From assembly GCF_004138125.1 (NCBI RefSeq), contig NZ_RXHS01000001.1, positions 310,001 through 374,000 on the forward strand: a DNA stretch of 64,000 bases. The letters are read 5' to 3'. The notes under the pieces were generated by a model. It was given only the letters and a program-made list of their open reading frames with translations, was not told the origin of the DNA and searched no databases. Shown one piece after another: positions 40,148 to 46,663 of this stretch (position 1 is its first letter; the number at the start of each line of letters is the position of its first letter). The position numbers were made by a program, and so were the translations under genes. The DNA is from Seramator thermalis (GTDB lineage: Bacteria; Bacteroidota; Bacteroidia; Bacteroidales; Dysgonomonadaceae).

Positions 40148-41203
40148 TTATTGCATGCTTTTTATTTTGGAAAAATACATGGCAAACGAGCGGTAAAGAA
40201 AATGCGTCCATTTACCGAAAGGAACGATGATAAGTGCCCATTGCGCCAACACCGTCAGGTGAATGATGTACATCCATTGTTGGGTTTCGATCAGTCCCAA
40301 ATCGATGAATAATCTGACCAAAAAAGCAGTAACTCCCATCAACAAAAGCCATATCACGAACAACCAATCCGAAGGTTGCGAAAACTGGTTGAGCGATTTA
40401 TTTTTCTTGATGCGACTCCCTACGAAATCGATCGTTACCACAAATATCAGAAAACTTTCGATGTATCCCAACGCGATCACAAAAATGCTTTGAGAGCCGA
40501 ACCAGTTGAGAAAAACCGTTGTGAAAAGCAGCGACAGATAGGCAATCACGAGCACAAAATGCTCGAGCCATCGGAAATGAACGTCGCCGTCGCAATCCTT
40601 ATATCGTTTTTGAGTGAACATGTGAACCAGCAGATCGCTAAGTGCCGATACATAATTTTTTAACGGAGCTTTCACTTTTGGCTTGACGATGGTGAAATAC
40701 CACATTCGCAACAGGTTGGGAAGAAAAATTACCAGAAGAACTGTCCCGATCGCGGTCATTTCGAAATAGTGCCCAATGTGGAGCATGCGTTCGGCATCGA
40801 AACCCACGGAATTGGCAAACAACAAAACGCCGGCAAACACCAGCAATAATGCAGCAATGGTGAACGAGAGCGAACGATAGAGCAGTCCCGACAACCCCGT
40901 CCAATCGTATTGTGCGGTAAGCCATCTGCGGAGCGACATCATCAGTTCACCCGGATTGGCCGTTTGCGGACAATTGGCTGTGCATTCGCCGCAGTAATAG
41001 CACTCCCACGGTTTAAGCGACGATTTGATTTCGTCTTCGAGCCCCAGTGCACTGTATCGAACCATTTCGCGTGGAAAAGAATCGTCGGTGGTGGATAGCG
41101 AACATACCGCCGTGCAGGTTCCGCAATTGTAGCACGCGTTCATGTTTACGGCACCGTATTTTTTTAGTTCTTCCGAAAACTTGGGATTGATTTTTGTTGC
41201 CAT
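40148..41203 (-). CDS. QmoC/HdrC-E-like membrane subunit with two 4Fe-4S clusters
   Basis: 351 residues. The N-terminal cytoplasmic part is an HdrC-type ferredoxin with CxxCxxCxxxC at Cys24-27-30-34 and a second set in CYYCGECTANCPQ near residue 70. The rest has about six transmembrane helices with histidines placed as in cytochrome-b-type HdrE/NarI/DsrM subunits (for example MLHIGHYFEMT and IIHLTVLAQWALI). In sulfate reducers QmoC passes electrons between the quinone pool and QmoAB. It is the last gene of the operon; its start overlaps the stop of the winged-helix gene by one base. Assignment to Qmo over other Hdr-like complexes is inference. Confidence 0.85.
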   Translation of the reverse strand: MATKINPKFSEELKKYGAVNMNACYNCGTCTAVCSLSTTDDSFPREMVRYSALGLEDEIKSSLKPWECYYCGECTANCPQTANPGELMMSLRRWLTAQYDWTGLSGLLYRSLSFTIAALLLVFAGVLLFANSVGFDAERMLHIGHYFEMTAIGTVLLVIFLPNLLRMWYFTIVKPKVKAPLKNYVSALSDLLVHMFTQKRYKDCDGDVHFRWLEHFVLVIAYLSLLFTTVFLNWFGSQSIFVIALGYIESFLIFVVTIDFVGSRIKKNKSLNQFSQPSDWLFVIWLLLMGVTAFLVRLFIDLGLIETQQWMYIIHLTVLAQWALIIVPFGKWTHFLYRSFAMYFSKIKSMQ

Positions 41204-41481
41204 TATTTTACCGGTTTATACGAAAAATATTCATCCATATCGTCAATTTCGCCAACAACTACCATACCATATTTCACTAGCGTTAGAAGATAATAGGTAA
41301 CGTCGGGTTTGGACATTTGCAATTTTTCGGCCAGTTGCGGAATTGTCATTTCCTGCTCTTTCAGGGCATCGAAGATGGCCTTTTTGATGCGATTGAACTC
41401 TTTGAGTTGTTCCTTTGCGCTATCGGGAACACCTTGCTTGTCCCGAAGATATTTGGCGGTTTTTCCGATTTCTATTTCCAT
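41203..41481 (-). CDS. Small winged-helix protein embedded in the redox operon
   Basis: A 92-residue cytosolic protein. A charged N-terminal helix is followed by a clear helix-turn-helix (MTIPQLAEKLQMSKPDVTYYLLTL) and a wing (YGMVVVGEIDD). It resembles DNA-binding modules of the ArsR/MarR type, but it is encoded inside an operon of enzyme subunits with 7- and 1-base junctions. It could be a local regulator or a structural accessory of the complex. I cannot assign it to a named family. Confidence 0.75.
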   Translation of the reverse strand: MEIEIGKTAKYLRDKQGVPDSAKEQLKEFNRIKKAIFDALKEQEMTIPQLAEKLQMSKPDVTYYLLTLVKYGMVVVGEIDDMDEYFSYKPVK

Positions 41482-41488
41482 AATTTTG

Positions 41489-43213
41489 TTAAGCTAAAGC
41501 ATCGATCATACTCATCATTTCTTCACTCGTATAGCCAATCAGGTTGATGGCATCTACCGGACAAACGGGAGCACACATGCCACAACCCTTGCACACCATC
41601 GGGTTGACGGATGCAACCTTTCTTCCACCCGTTTCTATCTGTTCGATAGCATCGAAGGGACAGGCATTGCTGCATTTGTCGCACCAGGAGCAAATATTCT
41701 GATCGATTTCGGCGATAATCGGTTCCGTTTCGAGTGTCCCTTTGCTGATATACGAAAACGATTTTGTTGCTGCCGACAAGGCCGAATTTACCGATTCGCT
41801 GATGTTTTTCGGCCCCTGACAGGTCCCGGCAATGGTTACGCCATCGATCACGGTTTCCACCGGTCGGAGTTTCATGTGAATTTCGTTGAAAAACCGGTCT
41901 CTGCCTTTCGGCAATTTAAGCATCGTACCGATAGACTGGTCTGCTCGCGGCACCATTCCGGTTACCAGCACCACCAAATCGACTTCCATTTCCATCTCCT
42001 TTTCGGCCGAAAGAATATCTTTTACGGTTACGACCGTTTTTTTGCCTTCGGTACGAATTTCGGGGAGATTATGTTCATCGAATTGCAGATACAGATCGCC
42101 CATTTGCAGCGATTCGGCATACAGCAACTCCTGCTTGCCATAGGTGCGGATGCCACGCGTTAGATGGATATTTTGAATGCCTTTGAACTTCTTTTTGGCT
42201 TCGATGGCCGTGTGAATGACCGAAGTGCAGCAAAATCGCGAACAATACGTGTTTTCGCCCTCACTCTGACGGCTGCCGACACAATAGACATAAGCGATAT
42301 TGTTGATTTTCTTGCCGTTGAAATCCAATGATTTGCCGGCAGATTTATCGACCAGTTGTTTAAATTCGGGCAAGGTGATCACAACCTCGCTCGTTCCGAA
42401 TCCATATTCCCCCTGTTTCGGCAAATAATGATCGTAGCCTGTTGCTACCACAATTGAGCCTACATGCAGTTCGATGATTTCCATCGGATCGTCCTCTTTC
42501 TGCGGACGCCTGCGAATTTTCAACTCGAAATTGCCAATGCTTCCTTTGGTGTCCGTAACTTCCGCACCTGTTAGAATGGTTACATTGTTATACTTTCGTA
42601 AATCGCTTTCGATGCGGGTCGTCAGTTCGAAACCTTTTTCATCGGTCATAAACAGACTGCCCCATTCGGCAGTGTGTCCTCCCAATCGGTTTTCCTTTTC
42701 AATCAGGATCACATTCGATTTTTTTTCGGCGAGCGACAAAGCTGCTTTCATTCCGGCAATACCGCCACCGATGACGGCGATGGTTTTTTCGGCTTCGAAC
42801 TGATTGGGAAACAGCGGATCGGCATATCGCGATTTGGCAATAGCCGCCTTAACCAGCCGAATGGCTTTTTCGGTTGCACCGAGTTTGTCGTCGGAATGTG
42901 CCCACGAAGCTTGTTCGCGAATGTTAGCGTGAACATACGTATATTTGTTCAAATCGCCCCGTTCGGTAACATTGCGGAATGTGGTGAGATGCAATTTGGG
43001 TGAACACGAAGCCACAATCACTCCGTCGAGATTGTGTTCGTGAATATCCTGCACCATATCGGTCTGATTGGTATCAGAACAAGCAAACATGGTAGTTTTG
43101 GCTATCACCACACCCTGCTCGTGTTCTACGGCAGCGCGTACCTTTTCTACATCCACGTAGTCGGAAATATTTCCGCCGCAATGACAAATATAAACGCCTA
43201 ATCTTTCTTTCAT
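41489..43213 (-). CDS. HdrA/QmoB-like FAD and iron-sulfur oxidoreductase
   Basis: 574 residues arranged as in heterodisulfide reductase subunit A. The N-terminal domain (GVYICHCGGNISDYVDV, then MFACSD and VASCSPKLH) carries conserved cysteines. An FAD-binding Rossmann fold follows (AVIGGGIAGMKAALSLAEK near 145-165), then a thioredoxin-reductase-like core with a CSRFCC segment. Two C-terminal 4Fe-4S motifs close the protein (CSWCDKCSNACP and CKGCGMCAPVCP). It could receive or bifurcate electrons. It overlaps the preceding QmoA-like gene by four bases (ATGA). Confidence 0.9.
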   Translation of the reverse strand: MKERLGVYICHCGGNISDYVDVEKVRAAVEHEQGVVIAKTTMFACSDTNQTDMVQDIHEHNLDGVIVASCSPKLHLTTFRNVTERGDLNKYTYVHANIREQASWAHSDDKLGATEKAIRLVKAAIAKSRYADPLFPNQFEAEKTIAVIGGGIAGMKAALSLAEKKSNVILIEKENRLGGHTAEWGSLFMTDEKGFELTTRIESDLRKYNNVTILTGAEVTDTKGSIGNFELKIRRRPQKEDDPMEIIELHVGSIVVATGYDHYLPKQGEYGFGTSEVVITLPEFKQLVDKSAGKSLDFNGKKINNIAYVYCVGSRQSEGENTYCSRFCCTSVIHTAIEAKKKFKGIQNIHLTRGIRTYGKQELLYAESLQMGDLYLQFDEHNLPEIRTEGKKTVVTVKDILSAEKEMEMEVDLVVLVTGMVPRADQSIGTMLKLPKGRDRFFNEIHMKLRPVETVIDGVTIAGTCQGPKNISESVNSALSAATKSFSYISKGTLETEPIIAEIDQNICSWCDKCSNACPFDAIEQIETGGRKVASVNPMVCKGCGMCAPVCPVDAINLIGYTSEEMMSMIDALA

Positions 43214-44514
43214 ACGCTTTGATACCGGGTTAAGTAACTGATTGCTTCCGACGATGCCGAACCGGCCGATAGAATGGAATCGGGGATATCCATCGGTCCA
43301 GATGCCGTGCCGGCAACAAAAACCCCGTCGATACTGGTTTTGGCCGGACTGCCCAACAAATCTTGTTGCGCCACAAACTGCAGCGGATCGAGTTTGAGCG
43401 AATTGCCGTCGAATATTTTTCCTGCCGAAGGATTAGATTTTACACCCACCGAAAGCACTACCATATCGTGTTCGGCTTCCTTCACCACCCCTTCGGCTAT
43501 ATCTTCGTAACGCAGAATAAGATTTCCGTTTTCTTTCTCGGTGATTTTGCCGATTTTTCCTTTCACAAAATTCACGCCCATTCCTTCGGCTTGCCGGTAA
43601 AATTCTTCGAATCCCTTGCCGAAGGCTCGAATGTCGATATAATAAATGGTAATATCTGCCATTGGTAAAGCACCCATCAGCAATTGCGCCTGCTTCATGG
43701 AGTACATGCAGCAAATTTGTGAGCAAATGGGGTTGCCGACGGTGTTGTCGCGCGAACCGGTGCAAAGTACATAAGCGATGCGGTCGGGCACTTTGCCGTC
43801 GCCCGGTCGCAAAATGGTATTGTAGGGTCGTGTCGGAGCAATTTCGCGTTCCATCTGCATGGAAGTAATCACGTTCTTGTATTGACCGTATCCGAATCGC
43901 GGTATCTCGAGCGGATCAAAAAGATTGAAGCCTGTGGCGAGAATGACCGTTTTGACGTGAAGCTCATAGTATTCCGTTTCCATCGTAAAATCGATGCAGT
44001 GGGTAGGACAGGCTTTTTCGCAAGCGCCACACAGCGTACAGTTTTCGATATCGATGACCGCCGCTTTGGGATTGGCAATGCTGAATGGAATAAAAGCCGC
44101 CTTGCGACCGATGAGCCCGAATTGATATTCGTCCCGAACACTCACAGGGCAGGCTTTTTCGCACAGTTGACATGCCGTGCAGTCTTCCACTCTTACATAA
44201 CGTGGTTTTTTCGTGATTTGTGCAACGAAATCGTTGTCGCCTTTTTTTGCGATATGGGTTACCTCGCTTTCCGTGAAAACGGTAATATTTTTATGACGAG
44301 CTATTTCCGATACTTTTGGAGTCGTGATGCAAGCGGCACAATCGAGGGTCGGGAAAACCTTGCTCAACAAAATCATTTTCCCGCCAAGCGAGTGATCTTT
44401 TTCTACCAGCAGCACCTTGTAGCCGGTATTTGCAAGATTGATGGCAGCTTCACCTCCTGCAATTCCTGCGCCGATTACCAAAGCATCGTACTCGATAATT
44501 TTTCTGTCTTCCAT
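43210..44514 (-). CDS. QmoA/HdrA-like FAD and iron-sulfur oxidoreductase
   Basis: 434 residues, a shorter HdrA relative. It opens with a Rossmann FAD site (VIGAGIAGGEAAINLANTGY) and keeps LDCAACIT. It carries two internal ferredoxin motifs (CTACQLCEKACP and CTLCGACEKACP) inserted before the second flavin half, the order seen in QmoA. Like QmoA it lacks the N-terminal HdrA domain. Its start codon shares one base with the stop of the MvhD-like gene, implying fixed stoichiometry. The partner and donor are not known. Confidence 0.88.
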   Translation of the reverse strand: MEDRKIIEYDALVIGAGIAGGEAAINLANTGYKVLLVEKDHSLGGKMILLSKVFPTLDCAACITTPKVSEIARHKNITVFTESEVTHIAKKGDNDFVAQITKKPRYVRVEDCTACQLCEKACPVSVRDEYQFGLIGRKAAFIPFSIANPKAAVIDIENCTLCGACEKACPTHCIDFTMETEYYELHVKTVILATGFNLFDPLEIPRFGYGQYKNVITSMQMEREIAPTRPYNTILRPGDGKVPDRIAYVLCTGSRDNTVGNPICSQICCMYSMKQAQLLMGALPMADITIYYIDIRAFGKGFEEFYRQAEGMGVNFVKGKIGKITEKENGNLILRYEDIAEGVVKEAEHDMVVLSVGVKSNPSAGKIFDGNSLKLDPLQFVAQQDLLGSPAKTSIDGVFVAGTASGPMDIPDSILSAGSASSEAISYLTRYQSV

Positions 44515-44930
44515 TAATTATTGTTTGAATGGATGGTTTTTATCAGATAATCGTTGAAACTGCGCATTTGCTTCACAAAGGCCTCACTGCAAACCGAGCA
44601 TAGGGCTGCCATGCGTAGACGCGCAGGATCGATTTCCTTCTCTTTCATTTTTTCGTGTGTCATCGCCACGATGTTTCCGGTTTTTTCGGTACACGATTCG
44701 CCGAAAATGCAATCGGTGCCGTCGGCTGCGATGAAAACTCCGTCGAAGCCTTTTTCATAGGCATGCATAATCCACGACGGTTTGATGCCGCTCGAACACG
44801 GAACCGTGATGGTATAAACCGTAGGCGGATAGTGCAGCTTGAGCAATCCCGCCATGTCGATGGCGGGATCCGAAATCTTTTCTGTGGAAAATACGAGTAT
44901 CTTCGCGTTCTTTTTGAAGGAATCCGACAT
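44514..44930 (-). CDS. MvhD/FlpD-like electron-transfer subunit
   Basis: 138 residues matching the hydrogenase delta-subunit family that in methanogens links a hydrogenase or formate dehydrogenase to HdrA through a 2Fe-2S cluster. Conserved cysteines occur in VPCSSGIKPSW, GTDCIFGESC and ALCSVCSEAF. No hydrogenase or formate dehydrogenase gene is nearby, so here it probably connects the HdrA-like proteins to another donor. It lies 28 bases downstream of the tusA start. Confidence 0.88.
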   Translation of the reverse strand: MSDSFKKNAKILVFSTEKISDPAIDMAGLLKLHYPPTVYTITVPCSSGIKPSWIMHAYEKGFDGVFIAADGTDCIFGESCTEKTGNIVAMTHEKMKEKEIDPARLRMAALCSVCSEAFVKQMRSFNDYLIKTIHSNNN

Positions 44931-44958
44931 TTCGAAACAGTTTTTTTCGATGTTGGGG

Positions 44959-45210
44959 TTATTTTTTTCTCAGATAAACTTTGAAATATCCGTTCTCGTC
45001 AATCGATCCGAGAAATTCGTGCCCTTGTTTGGTGCACCATTTCGGGATATCTATTTTTGTGCCTTCGTCAGCCGACAATACTTCCATCACATCTCCCACA
45101 TTTATGGTTCCGATGGCTTTTTTTGCTTCCAAAAGCGGTCCCGGACAGGCAGTCCCGCGTGCATCAACCGATTTGGCTACTTTCAATCCTTTCAATTCTT
45201 CTGTTGTCAT
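44959..45210 (-). CDS. tusA: TusA family sulfur carrier
   Basis: 83 residues. The SVDARGTACPGPLLEAKKAI motif places the persulfide-carrying Cys22 in the canonical CPxP. TusA proteins pass sulfane sulfur between enzymes, either for tRNA thiolation or in sulfur oxidation. Its place between a DsrE2-like gene and Hdr-like genes is the arrangement associated with dissimilatory or detoxifying sulfur trafficking, not tRNA modification. The linkage is inference. Confidence 0.93.
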   Translation of the reverse strand: MTTEELKGLKVAKSVDARGTACPGPLLEAKKAIGTINVGDVMEVLSADEGTKIDIPKWCTKQGHEFLGSIDENGYFKVYLRKK

Positions 45211-45291
45211 GATGTTTGTTTTTTATGGTTTCCCCTTTTAGTCGAGGAAACGAGGTGAATATTTAATGTGAATATTTTTTTTGGGAAACGG

Positions 45292-45858
45292 TCAAATAAA
45301 CCATTGCATGCTGCTTTCGCCTGCATCGGCAACGAAAGTGGTTGCTCCGGCAAAACGGAGATTGGGGTAATCGATCATTTCTTCTTTCTTGAAGCCCATC
45401 AGGTGCATCGACATTTCGCACACCGTGATTTCGATTCCGAGCTCCGCTGCTTCCTTGAACATTTCGTCGAGCGACATTACGCCTTGTTTTTTCATCAGAC
45501 TTTTGATCATCACGGGTCCCATTCCACACATGTTGAGTCTGGAAAGTTTCAGTTTGTTGCGTCCTTTGGGAAGCATGAATCCGAACATTTTCGAAATAAA
45601 ATCTTTTCCTTTGGCTTTCTTTTTGGGATCGCGCAAAGCCGCCAATGCCCAAAACGAAAAAAACAGTTTCACTTGTGTGTCCATAGCCGCGGCAGCCAGC
45701 GAGATGATCATTCCGGCCAATATTTTATCCATATCGCCCGAAACAATGGCGATGGACAATTGATCTTTTCGCGAATTTTCCATTCGTGAGGTTTGTGCTT
45801 TCAGGGTTTCGAGTTCCGCCAAAAGCTTTTCCATGCTTATTTCTCCCGATTCTTCCAT
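45292..45858 (-). CDS. DsrE/F-like (DsrE2-type) persulfide-handling protein
   Basis: About 188 residues from the ATG at 45858 (MEESGEISMEKLLAELETLK). A longer open frame upstream would run through the palindrome and the promoter of the regulator and is rejected. After a coiled N-terminal helix comes the DsrE fold with hydrophobic IAIVSGDMDKILAGMIISLAA. Candidate sulfur-binding cysteines are in RLNMCGMGP and EITVCEMSMHLMG, as in DsrE2. Such proteins exchange persulfide with TusA, the next gene (81-base gap). It is the first gene of the seven-gene operon. Confidence 0.88.
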   Translation of the reverse strand: MEESGEISMEKLLAELETLKAQTSRMENSRKDQLSIAIVSGDMDKILAGMIISLAAAAMDTQVKLFFSFWALAALRDPKKKAKGKDFISKMFGFMLPKGRNKLKLSRLNMCGMGPVMIKSLMKKQGVMSLDEMFKEAAELGIEITVCEMSMHLMGFKKEEMIDYPNLRFAGATTFVADAGESSMQWFI

Positions 45859-45891
45859 GTTGTTGATTTTTTGTAAATGAATACAATGCGA

Positions 45892-45913
45892 AATAAGGAA
45901 ATATTTCCTTATT
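45892..45913. promoter_or_regulatory. Perfect 22-bp palindrome upstream of the dsrE2 operon
   Basis: The half-site is AATAAGGAAAT and the second half is its exact reverse complement, with no spacer. The site sits 33 bases before the dsrE2 ATG and is a strong candidate operator for the operon. Its sequence differs from the CRP-like site 38 bases away, so a second regulator (perhaps the operon's winged-helix protein) may bind it. Confidence 0.6.
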
Positions 45914-45948
45914 AAATTCTTTTTATCACGTGCAGAATCATACAATAT

Positions 45949-45981
45949 TTTGTGATATGTATCACTTTTTAGATATCTTTG
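45949..45981 (+). promoter_or_regulatory. Promoter of the Crp/Fnr gene with overlapping CRP-type site
   Basis: TTTG (45949-45952) and TATCTTTG (45974-45981) are 21 bases apart, a good Bacteroidetes promoter. A TGTGA-TATGTA-TCACT dyad (45951-45966) covers the spacer, the usual position for repression. The predicted start lies at or just after the annotated ATG. Confidence 0.6.
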
Positions 45982-45985
45982 TCGT

Positions 45986-46663
45986 ATGAAGAACGAATGC
46001 CTCAATTGCGCCTGCGTCATGAAATCGATGCAGTCGCTCAAAAGCTGTCAGTTGGAACAGCTCGAAAGTAATCATGCCGTAGTGCAATTTCGGAAAGGTG
46101 ATCCCATCATCAAACAGGGAATGTTTTCGACCAACGTTGTTTTTCTGAAAAGCGGGTTGGTCAAAATTCACATCACGGGCCCTTATCACGAACAGATCGT
46201 GCGTTTGGCCAAAGCGCCTACTTATTTGGGTTTGCCAACCACAATCGGCGATAAAATCAATCAATATTCCGTTACGGCAGTGCAGGATTCCGAAGTTTGC
46301 TTTATCGATCTGAACATCTTTAAGCGCGTATTGGAAGAAAACAAAGACTTTTCGTCCCATATCATTCTCGAGTTATGCAAAAGCGAACTCGAAAGCTATC
46401 GCAGATGTGCCAACCGCACTCAAAAGCAAACGCGAGGCAATTTGGCTGATGTTTTGCTCGATTTGTCGGAAAACGTTTTCGAGTCGGCTGAATTCGTCTT
46501 GCCCATTTCTCAATCGGATATAGGCAATCTGGTTGATGCCAGTCGCGAAAGCGTGAACAGACTTCTATCCGAACTGATGAACGATGGAATCATCCGCATG
46601 GAAGGAAGGAAAATAGAGATTTTGAACAAATCTTCGCTGCAATTGATTTCTCAAAACGGATAA
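45986..46663 (+). CDS. Crp/Fnr family transcriptional regulator
   Basis: 225 residues with an N-terminal cyclic-nucleotide-binding-like beta-roll (QFRKGDPIIKQGMFSTNVVFLKSGLVKI). A dimer helix follows, then a C-terminal winged helix (ISQSDIGNLVDASRESVNRLLSELMNDG). A CxxCxC cluster (Cys5, Cys8, Cys10) at the extreme N-terminus recalls FeS- or redox-sensing FNR types. The predicted promoter leaves almost no leader before this ATG, so translation might start at the ATG at 46019, which would remove the cysteines. It is divergent from the sulfur/Hdr operon and probably controls it. Confidence 0.9.
   Translation: MKNECLNCACVMKSMQSLKSCQLEQLESNHAVVQFRKGDPIIKQGMFSTNVVFLKSGLVKIHITGPYHEQIVRLAKAPTYLGLPTTIGDKINQYSVTAVQDSEVCFIDLNIFKRVLEENKDFSSHIILELCKSELESYRRCANRTQKQTRGNLADVLLDLSENVFESAEFVLPISQSDIGNLVDASRESVNRLLSELMNDGIIRMEGRKIEILNKSSLQLISQNG

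Follow-up and report, generated by a model that had tools for sequence, protein, structure and literature searches.

An operon joining TusA and DsrE-type sulfur carriers to a Qmo-like complex with remodelled MvhD cysteines in Seramator thermalis: a candidate quinone-linked sulfane-sulfur oxidoreductase

Seramator thermalis (Bacteroidales, Dysgonomonadaceae) possesses on contig NZ_RXHS01000001.1 (assembly GCF_004138125.1) an operon in which genes for sulfur carriers adjoin those of a Qmo-like electron transfer complex. The stretch analysed, referred to as the window, is 64,000 nucleotides in length (positions 310,001 to 374,000 of the contig), and its positions are those used in Table 1. Seven minus strand genes code, in order, for a DsrE2-like protein, TusA, an MvhD-like subunit, QmoA, QmoB, a small winged-helix protein and QmoC, with the gene of a Crp/Fnr regulator divergent to them. 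This layout, first described in an earlier note made from the sequence alone, holds, with all eight open reading frames (ORFs) intact and overlaps of 1 base for MvhD/QmoA, 4 bases for QmoA/QmoB and 1 base for winged helix/QmoC. The operon may encode a quinone-linked sulfane-sulfur oxidoreductase, a reading to which we give about the same weight as to all others together. The proposal of the note, a persulfide/quinone redox complex operating without AprAB, DsrAB or [NiFe] hydrogenase, is supported by genome searches and trees. Qmo complexes and YTD (yedE-tusA-dsrE) clusters are already known; the new feature is the rewired MvhD within the Qmo/TusA/DsrE combination.

In hydrogenase complexes MvhD connects the hydrogenase to HdrA, and its canonical cysteines bind its [2Fe-2S] cluster. 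The MvhD-like subunit of the operon, which is the only MvhD/FlpD match of the genome, passes the FlpD profile (92.0 bits against a cut-off of 22.3), and its similarity to the solved chain 5odc_D is only 1e-11, with the first cysteine motif and most of the third missing. By comparison, the MvhD of a hydrogenase-linked relative (locus L064; loci and genomes of relatives are designated L and G) has the motifs CNWC, CSGR and GCHxGDC and matches solved MvhD with E-values of 6e-51 (9sw2_D) and 3.1e-50 (5odc_D). Of the old cysteines the window protein retains two, Cys45 and Cys74; it further carries Cys80, Cys111 and Cys114, and each of the five is invariant in 100 aligned rows. The new CxxC is present in 99 of 99 distinct copies adjacent to TusA (97 C[ST]VC, 2 CSIC), while it occurs in none of seven hydrogenase-linked and none of eight AprAB-linked copies. 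The canonical motifs (N-terminal CxxC and GCHxGDC) show the opposite pattern, with none in the 99 TusA-adjacent copies and both in all seven hydrogenase-linked ones. Loci fetched later gave the same picture, with the new CxxC in 13/13 of the sulfur type and 0/9 of the hydrogenase type and the canonical motif in 9/9 of the latter; MvhD of L083, L131 and L146, with no TusA neighbour in reach, also carries the new CxxC. The cysteine pattern of MvhD tracks its partner, with the new CxxC beside TusA and the canonical motifs beside hydrogenase.

As the canonical motifs are lost in all TusA-adjacent copies, the earlier description of this protein as an ordinary electron link is not supported. Judged from these sequences, association with a sulfur carrier goes together with a different cysteine site in the partner-docking subunit, and the CxxC may be a dithiol which meets the persulfide or a different iron-sulfur (Fe-S) site. 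The FAD, Fe-S and CPxP motifs of the operon had also been taken to be complete. This is correct for the CPGP motif of TusA, incorrect for the canonical cysteine motifs of MvhD, and not fully correct for QmoB, which has no cysteine at four positions where 71 of the 99 aligned rows carry one.

The same gene order recurs in dozens of genomes, which answers the suggestion that the neighbourhood be searched for across the Bacteroidetes and rules out chance or artefact as its origin. Core and neighbour counts rest on an alignment scan of genome contigs with QmoA, from which the best 80 of at least 587 relatives were kept; by title, these are nearly all Bacteroidota metagenome-assembled genomes (MAGs), with names including Porphyromonas cangingivalis, Fermentimonas, Proteiniphilum, Petrimonas and Paludibacter, plus the isolate Prolixibacter denitrificans (DSM 27267, locus L130). 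The two genome collections used overlap, the pairs L036/L090, L053/L112, L057/L117 and L046/L094 apparently being the same loci. The complete core was found in 44 of 49 loci with sufficient flank. Taken singly on the same basis, MvhD, TusA and a DsrE-type gene were each present in 64/65 loci, QmoB and QmoC in 59/59 and the winged-helix gene in 57/59. TusA lies upstream of QmoA in 64/65 loci, and a divergent Crp gene was found within eight genes in 47/61. The DsrE slot is filled by a 188-residue DsrE2-like protein in 42/65 loci, by a 140-residue DsrE in 33 and by a third type in 7, some loci having two of these.

Described initially as uncommon, this QmoA/QmoB operon type is present in no fewer than 54 of the 295 genomes sampled from the order, a lower bound as QmoC matches below approximately 31% identity were left out. 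A first count, requiring full-length QmoC with at least 56% identity, gave 36/295 genomes with 29 family codes, the genome of the window included; the other 35 were all examined, several loci being cut by contig ends, and four of them (L050, L055, L058 and L060) gave no call for the winged helix. A further 18 genomes, recognised from weaker QmoC matches, share the QmoA/QmoB type and have another kind of QmoC; 14 of them have TusA, one (G180) the rewired MvhD, and three (G110, G076, G083) only Qmo genes and the winged helix before the contig ends; L226 (G157) was left unplaced. The three genomes sampled from the window's own family gave no full-length QmoC at the identity of the first count. 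Given this patchy spread, with no copy in three genomes of its own family, the operon is an accessory trait. The same spread (54/295 genomes, 0/3 of the family) speaks against a role in biosynthetic sulfur trafficking, in which the carriers would supply Fe-S clusters, thiolated tRNA or cofactors and the Qmo part would only keep them reduced. TusA and DsrE families do have such roles elsewhere; nevertheless, two flavoproteins and a membrane quinone subunit exceed what this would need, and we consider it very improbable.

Searches for partner enzymes covered the whole of the 2.98 Mb S. thermalis genome, which is 99.97% complete. No match was found to NIR_SIR (PF01077), which implies that DsrAB, AsrC and CysI are missing, nor to the aprA model (genome G000) or to [NiFe] hydrogenase (PF00374); [FeFe] hydrogenase was not searched for. 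The absence of AprAB, DsrAB and [NiFe] hydrogenase, noted before for the neighbourhood of the operon, consequently extends by profile searches to the entire genome. A Qmo complex serving AprAB from another part of the genome is ruled out by the absent aprA match. The genome has one rhodanese match, and its single molybdoenzyme is closer to the dimethyl sulfoxide reductase type II models than to formate dehydrogenase. AprA is also absent from 47 of the 54 operon-bearing genomes, the window's included.

Trees of the HdrA-like proteins, which had been recommended as a check, place the flavoproteins of the window apart from the AprAB- and hydrogenase-linked lineages. In a careful tree of 44 QmoA, QmoB and HdrA sequences, without long-branched rows, the window's QmoA and QmoB each fall in a clade of TusA-linked copies (support 100/99 and 100/100), an AprAB-linked clade (100/99) excludes both, and hydrogenase-linked QmoA and QmoB form separate clades (100/100 each). 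TusA-linked QmoB is nearer to methanogen HdrA (95/89) and to hydrogenase-linked QmoB (89/94), and the window's QmoB matches solved HdrA chains with a best E-value of 5.1e-111. The same groups were obtained in a wider quick tree, from which rows of less than 330 residues were left out and in which long-branched rows are unsure. With these trees and the lack of AprA, the two flavoproteins do not correspond to a characterised Qmo or Hdr system accompanied by its usual enzyme. All three kinds are carried by genome G176, namely L053 (sulfur carriers), L064 (hydrogenase) and L201 (AprAB).

The membrane subunit QmoC scores 142.9 bits, not reaching the curated qmoC cut-off of 300. Its eight cluster cysteines and His145, His215 and His334 are invariant in 86 rows, of which His194 and His315 are kept in 94% and His142 in 88%. 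AprAB-linked QmoC makes up a single group of the QmoC tree (100/100), and sulfur- and hydrogenase-linked QmoC interleave, with L061 and L062 among the sulfur-linked rows, L065-L068 beside the hydrogenase-linked ones and three changes per label; L062 (hydrogenase-linked) and L067 (sulfur-linked) are labelled by kinship only, their contigs ending early. Seven further sulfur-linked loci (L205-L211) have a QmoC of the hydrogenase type, and in L227 a QmoA of that type occurs with a QmoC of the sulfur type. On this sequence evidence QmoC is exchanged between the sulfur-linked and the hydrogenase-linked complexes, from which both presumably use the same kind of membrane module and the same pool. A third kind of QmoC, approximately 30% identical, was seen in L232-L240.

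In the scheme proposed here, DsrE2 and TusA would carry sulfur as cysteine persulfide, as their families and invariant cysteines suggest, and the carrier-bound persulfide would meet the electron chain at the MvhD-like subunit rebuilt with a CxxC. By homology, electrons would travel through the FAD and Fe-S clusters of QmoA and QmoB to QmoC, which would exchange them with menaquinone. As no sulfite-reductase-type enzyme was found, the chemistry at hand would be the interconversion of persulfide and sulfide. The likeliest direction would be from TusA-persulfide to TusA thiol and sulfide, which would let an anaerobe dispose of electrons; a second donor of low potential, such as NAD(P)H or ferredoxin, may take part. 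We hold this direction, electron flow toward persulfide reduction, with moderate confidence, since Phs-like and thioredoxin-reductase-like genes or an NAD(P)H module accompany the operon in some relatives, and since Petrimonas sulfuriphila is reported to respire elemental sulfur (S0). In L098 and L099, QmoC is followed by genes for a molybdoenzyme resembling PhsA (469 of 694 bits), an Fe-S protein and an NrfD protein and by rhodanese-family genes (the L098 proteins were scanned), as well as two short YeeE-like genes recognised by eye; a PhsA-like gene also lies downstream of QmoC in L095, where the contig then ends. Thioredoxin-reductase-like genes occur in the flanks of 11/80 loci, the one member scanned reaching 329 of 343 bits. 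S0 respiration by P. sulfuriphila is stated in PMC9695182, and QmoA to QmoC are present in Petrimonas MAG L141; no sulfur-reduction gene is named in the passages on sulfur compounds and hydrogenase of a paper on Petrimonas mucosa (PMC7768429).

A more specific version is offered tentatively, in which catalysis takes place at the rewired MvhD and the complex is a new respiratory persulfide reductase, linked to quinol (possibly also to NAD(P)H or ferredoxin), that takes sulfur from TusA and releases sulfide. Taken jointly with this, such a reductase would be no kin of the molybdenum polysulfide reductases and would be spread through the Bacteroidales, a proposal to which we give similarly guarded credence.

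Several points weigh against persulfide reduction or against its proposed site. With potentials of approximately -270 mV for S0/HS- and -74 mV for menaquinone, menaquinol alone is too weak a reductant and sulfide oxidation would be easier. The YeeE/YedE importer (PF04143) has no match in the whole S. thermalis genome, nor is YeeE enriched with the operon; the first count gave 16/36 operon-bearing genomes against 123/259 others (p 0.86), and after widening these became 28/54 and 111/241 (p 0.45). AprA, which in the first count was found in 3/36 operon-bearing genomes and 15/259 others (p 0.47), was after widening present in 7/54 and 11/241 respectively (p 0.03), so that in some hosts the operon may be linked to the metabolism of sulfur oxyanions. 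The MvhD cysteines may bind another Fe-S cluster instead of reacting with sulfur, and in the MvhD of the outgroup loci L189/L190 only the CxxC pair is kept out of the five cysteines. Finally, a gene resembling sulfide:quinone reductase (SQR) lies beside the regulator of L118, a weak match with 34 of 525 bits.

These energetics and the L118 gene would suit the complex running in reverse, as a cytoplasmic sulfide:quinone reductase loading sulfide onto TusA/DsrE and reducing menaquinone for detoxification or energy, as would the exchange of QmoC with a hydrogenase-linked complex which presumably reduces quinone. However, the genome has no sulfite-reductase-type enzyme to process the product further, the Phs-like and thioredoxin-reductase-like neighbours of some relatives suit reduction better, and related genera include a sulfur-respiring fermenter. 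We regard this reverse operation as rather unlikely.

The QmoA proteins of L055 and L060 contain an inserted GltD-type NAD(P)H/FAD module, a natural fusion which makes NAD(P)H a possible second electron partner. It could also indicate confurcation or bifurcation, with sulfane sulfur placed between menaquinone and ferredoxin or NAD(P)H and coupled by HdrA-type flavins, as the flavins of methanogen HdrA are established to bifurcate; a similar domain set was found, by Pfam only, in a hydrogenase-linked QmoA-QmoB fusion (L192:11156-15625). The window itself has no GltD-type domain, and we consider such coupling improbable, a little more so than the reverse reaction. The QmoA of L050 is of the same length as those of L055 and L060. 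In L081, L082, L083 and L084 (Paludibacter/Porphyromonas-type) a gene of approximately 160 residues resembling a lipoprotein sits between QmoA and QmoB.

Longer versions of the operon point to sulfane sulfur, as far as gene content can indicate. Upstream of the operon in L121, L135, L136, L139 and L142 there are genes for a 404-residue YeeE-type protein, rhodanese-family proteins, a porin and one or two DsrE proteins; L135, L139 and L142 have in addition a second TusA and a divergent Crp at the head of the row. Scans of L142 identified Sulf_transp, Porin_O_P and Rhodanese, with the genes of the other loci assigned by clustering. Judged by the lengths of their genes, L056, L065, L066 and L047 appear similar, and for L056 the sequence agrees as well.

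The names of the operon genes are supported by Pfam and NCBIfam at family level, several curated cut-offs being missed, and by these scores the proteins are relatives of the named families rather than equivalogs. TusA reaches 82.1 bits in Pfam (cut-off 28.6) and 46.5 of the 78 bits required for the equivalog. The DsrE2-like protein obtains 59 of 210 bits with the NCBIfam model, and its AlphaFold2 model (mean pLDDT, the predicted local distance difference test, of 79.8; other four models 70.2 to 45.3) is closest to the solved DsrE 3pnx (E-value 9.2e-17); DsrE2 of Allochromatium is a membrane form with two transmembrane helices. Its start is likely the ATG at 45858, the TTG of the ORF list lying earlier. 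Cysteines are invariant in TusA (Cys22, 98 rows), DsrE2 (Cys147, 56 rows), the 140-residue DsrE (Cys100, 36 rows) and the third type (Cys86, 8 rows), as expected for sulfur carriers. The winged-helix protein is modelled with a mean pLDDT of 89.5 as an ArsR/MarR-type fold, and the fold search returned many tied ArsR/MarR folds, with DsrD not among the matches listed. As its acidic wing (DDMDEY) is best conserved, the recognition-helix positions vary and no conserved cysteine was found in the alignment, a protein-binding role would be as likely as DNA binding.

Table 1. Positions of the operon and its regulatory region in the window, and of QmoA proteins with an inserted module in two relatives (locus coordinates)
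Feature	Position	Strand	Support
QmoC-like membrane subunit (HdrC-type 2x[4Fe-4S] domain and membrane domain)	40148..41203	-	qmoC model 1.7e-41
Small winged-helix protein, 92 residues	41203..41481	-	HTH_5 2.3e-6
QmoB, HdrA-type FAD/Fe-S flavoprotein with HdrA N-terminal domain, without fused MvhD	41489..43213	-	HdrA2 model 1.7e-144
QmoA, short HdrA-type FAD protein with two [4Fe-4S] motifs	43210..44514	-	HdrA2 model 1.5e-141; tree
MvhD-like subunit with remodelled cysteines	44514..44930	-	FlpD 3.6e-26
CSVC motif (Cys111/Cys114) of MvhD-like subunit, proposed redox or cluster site	44589..44600	-	
TusA sulfur carrier, CPGP motif	44959..45210	-	TusA 2.6e-23
DsrE2-like sulfurtransferase, first gene of the operon	45292..45858	-	DrsE_2 9.5e-43
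GTGAT-N4-ATCAC palindrome, likely operator of the divergent regulator (predicted)	45952..45965	no strand	
Divergent Crp/Fnr-family regulator	45986..46663	+	HTH_Crp_2 1.8e-15, cNMP_binding 1.5e-13
QmoA with GltD-type module	L055:7212-9959; L060:59-2803		

The divergent Crp/Fnr regulator would act on the operon through a GTGA-N6-TCAC box. Of 70 crp-operon spacers, 48 contain a box of this type, where shuffles keeping single-base composition only lead one to expect 0.73; the 70 include duplicate loci and are not all independent, and L045, L101, L109, L111 and L149 were excluded by spacer length. The genome has three exact GTGAT-N4-ATCAC sites, of which only that in the spacer of the operon is outside an ORF, so that the regulator looks dedicated to this operon. 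A wider regulon for the box in this genome was rejected, the other two sites falling within ORFs. The regulator is the genome's only PF00325 match, other Crp-type domains not having been searched for, and its Cys5, Cys8 and Cys105 are invariant in 67 rows. R180/E181 of the recognition helix are tied to this kind of box by Rodionov et al. (PMC1274295), and the window's regulator has RES in the presumed recognition helix. The same source, together with PMC545781, gives TGTGA-N6-TCACA as consensus for Desulfovibrio HcpR and describes HcpR proteins without the FNR cysteine motif. HcpR is consequently doubtful as the identity of the regulator, for although the boxes are similar the latter has three invariant cysteines. 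A second perfect palindrome, AAGGAAATATTTCCTT, is present at 45895-45910, between the operator box and the DsrE2 start.

Of the known systems, type I QmoABC of the AprAB cluster (Chlorobia-like L184-L187, and L201-L204 from the window's order) shares QmoC and the HdrA-type flavoproteins QmoA and QmoB. It differs in lying beside aprA/aprB, in a QmoB of 704-750 residues ending in MvhD, and in its own QmoA, QmoB and QmoC clades, whereas the window's operon has a separate, rewired MvhD and no AprA in its genome. Type II Qmo (Ammonifex, Vulcanisaeta; Neukirchen et al., 2023, PMC10504309) was compared by description only, and the main text of that paper contains neither "bacteroid" nor "mvhd". The methanogen HdrABC-MvhAGD complex has HdrA- and MvhD-related proteins in common with the operon (solved relatives 5odc, 8rvv and 9sw2); in contrast, a Pfam scan of the seven window proteins, and of these only, gave no HdrB-type (CCG) domain, [NiFe] hydrogenase is missing from the genome and the canonical MvhD cysteine motifs are lost. 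The hydrogenase-linked Qmo-like paralogue shares QmoA, QmoB, QmoC and MvhD, and differs by its adjoining [NiFe] hydrogenase genes, canonical MvhD cysteines and separate QmoA and QmoB clades. With the YTD cluster (DsrEFH type II) the operon shares TusA and DsrE-type carriers, and YTD-like pieces are joined to it in relatives (YeeE, second TusA and DsrE in L135, L139 and L142; YeeE and DsrE in L121 and L136), unlike in S. thermalis with its lack of YeeE. YTD clusters are reported chiefly from sulfur disproportionators and alongside reductive Dsr genes (PMC12998232, PMC13293266; clusters also in PMC9751629).

No description of a TusA/DsrE-Qmo operon with rewired MvhD was found in open-licence PubMed Central papers. 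For Qmo-like complexes without Dsr or Apr, experiments have been called for to clarify their role (PMC10504309), and this question gains concrete candidates in a protein-bound persulfide as substrate, the CxxC site of MvhD and a regulator with its box. The same Qmo chassis would appear to be fitted with three partners within one order, namely adenosine 5′-phosphosulfate reductase, [NiFe] hydrogenase and sulfur carriers, and natural controls sit in the same genomes. If the complex is reductive, anaerobic Bacteroidales would have a route to sulfide which has so far gone unassigned.

Other gene sets were also observed in the relatives. AprA exceeds its cut-off in 18/295 genomes of the order, and aprB-aprA-qmoA-qmoB-qmoC stand in a row in L201-L204 (G176, G083, G007 and G233 respectively). 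The [NiFe] hydrogenase-linked Qmo-like operon (QmoA, QmoC, QmoB, MvhD and hydrogenase genes) was seen in L061, L064, L069, L070, L071, L212-L219 and L228-L231, with hydrogenase maturation factor-like genes nearby in L064 and L069. By eye, L056:2-5577 has multihaem cytochrome, cytochrome-b-like, rhodanese-like and YeeE-like genes resembling a second cluster for sulfur-compound respiration, genes resembling DUF134, NifX and Mrp are repeatedly found close to the operon in L087, L103, L118, L125, L126 and L147, and ATP synthase subunit-like genes lie downstream of QmoC in L127, L128 and L131.

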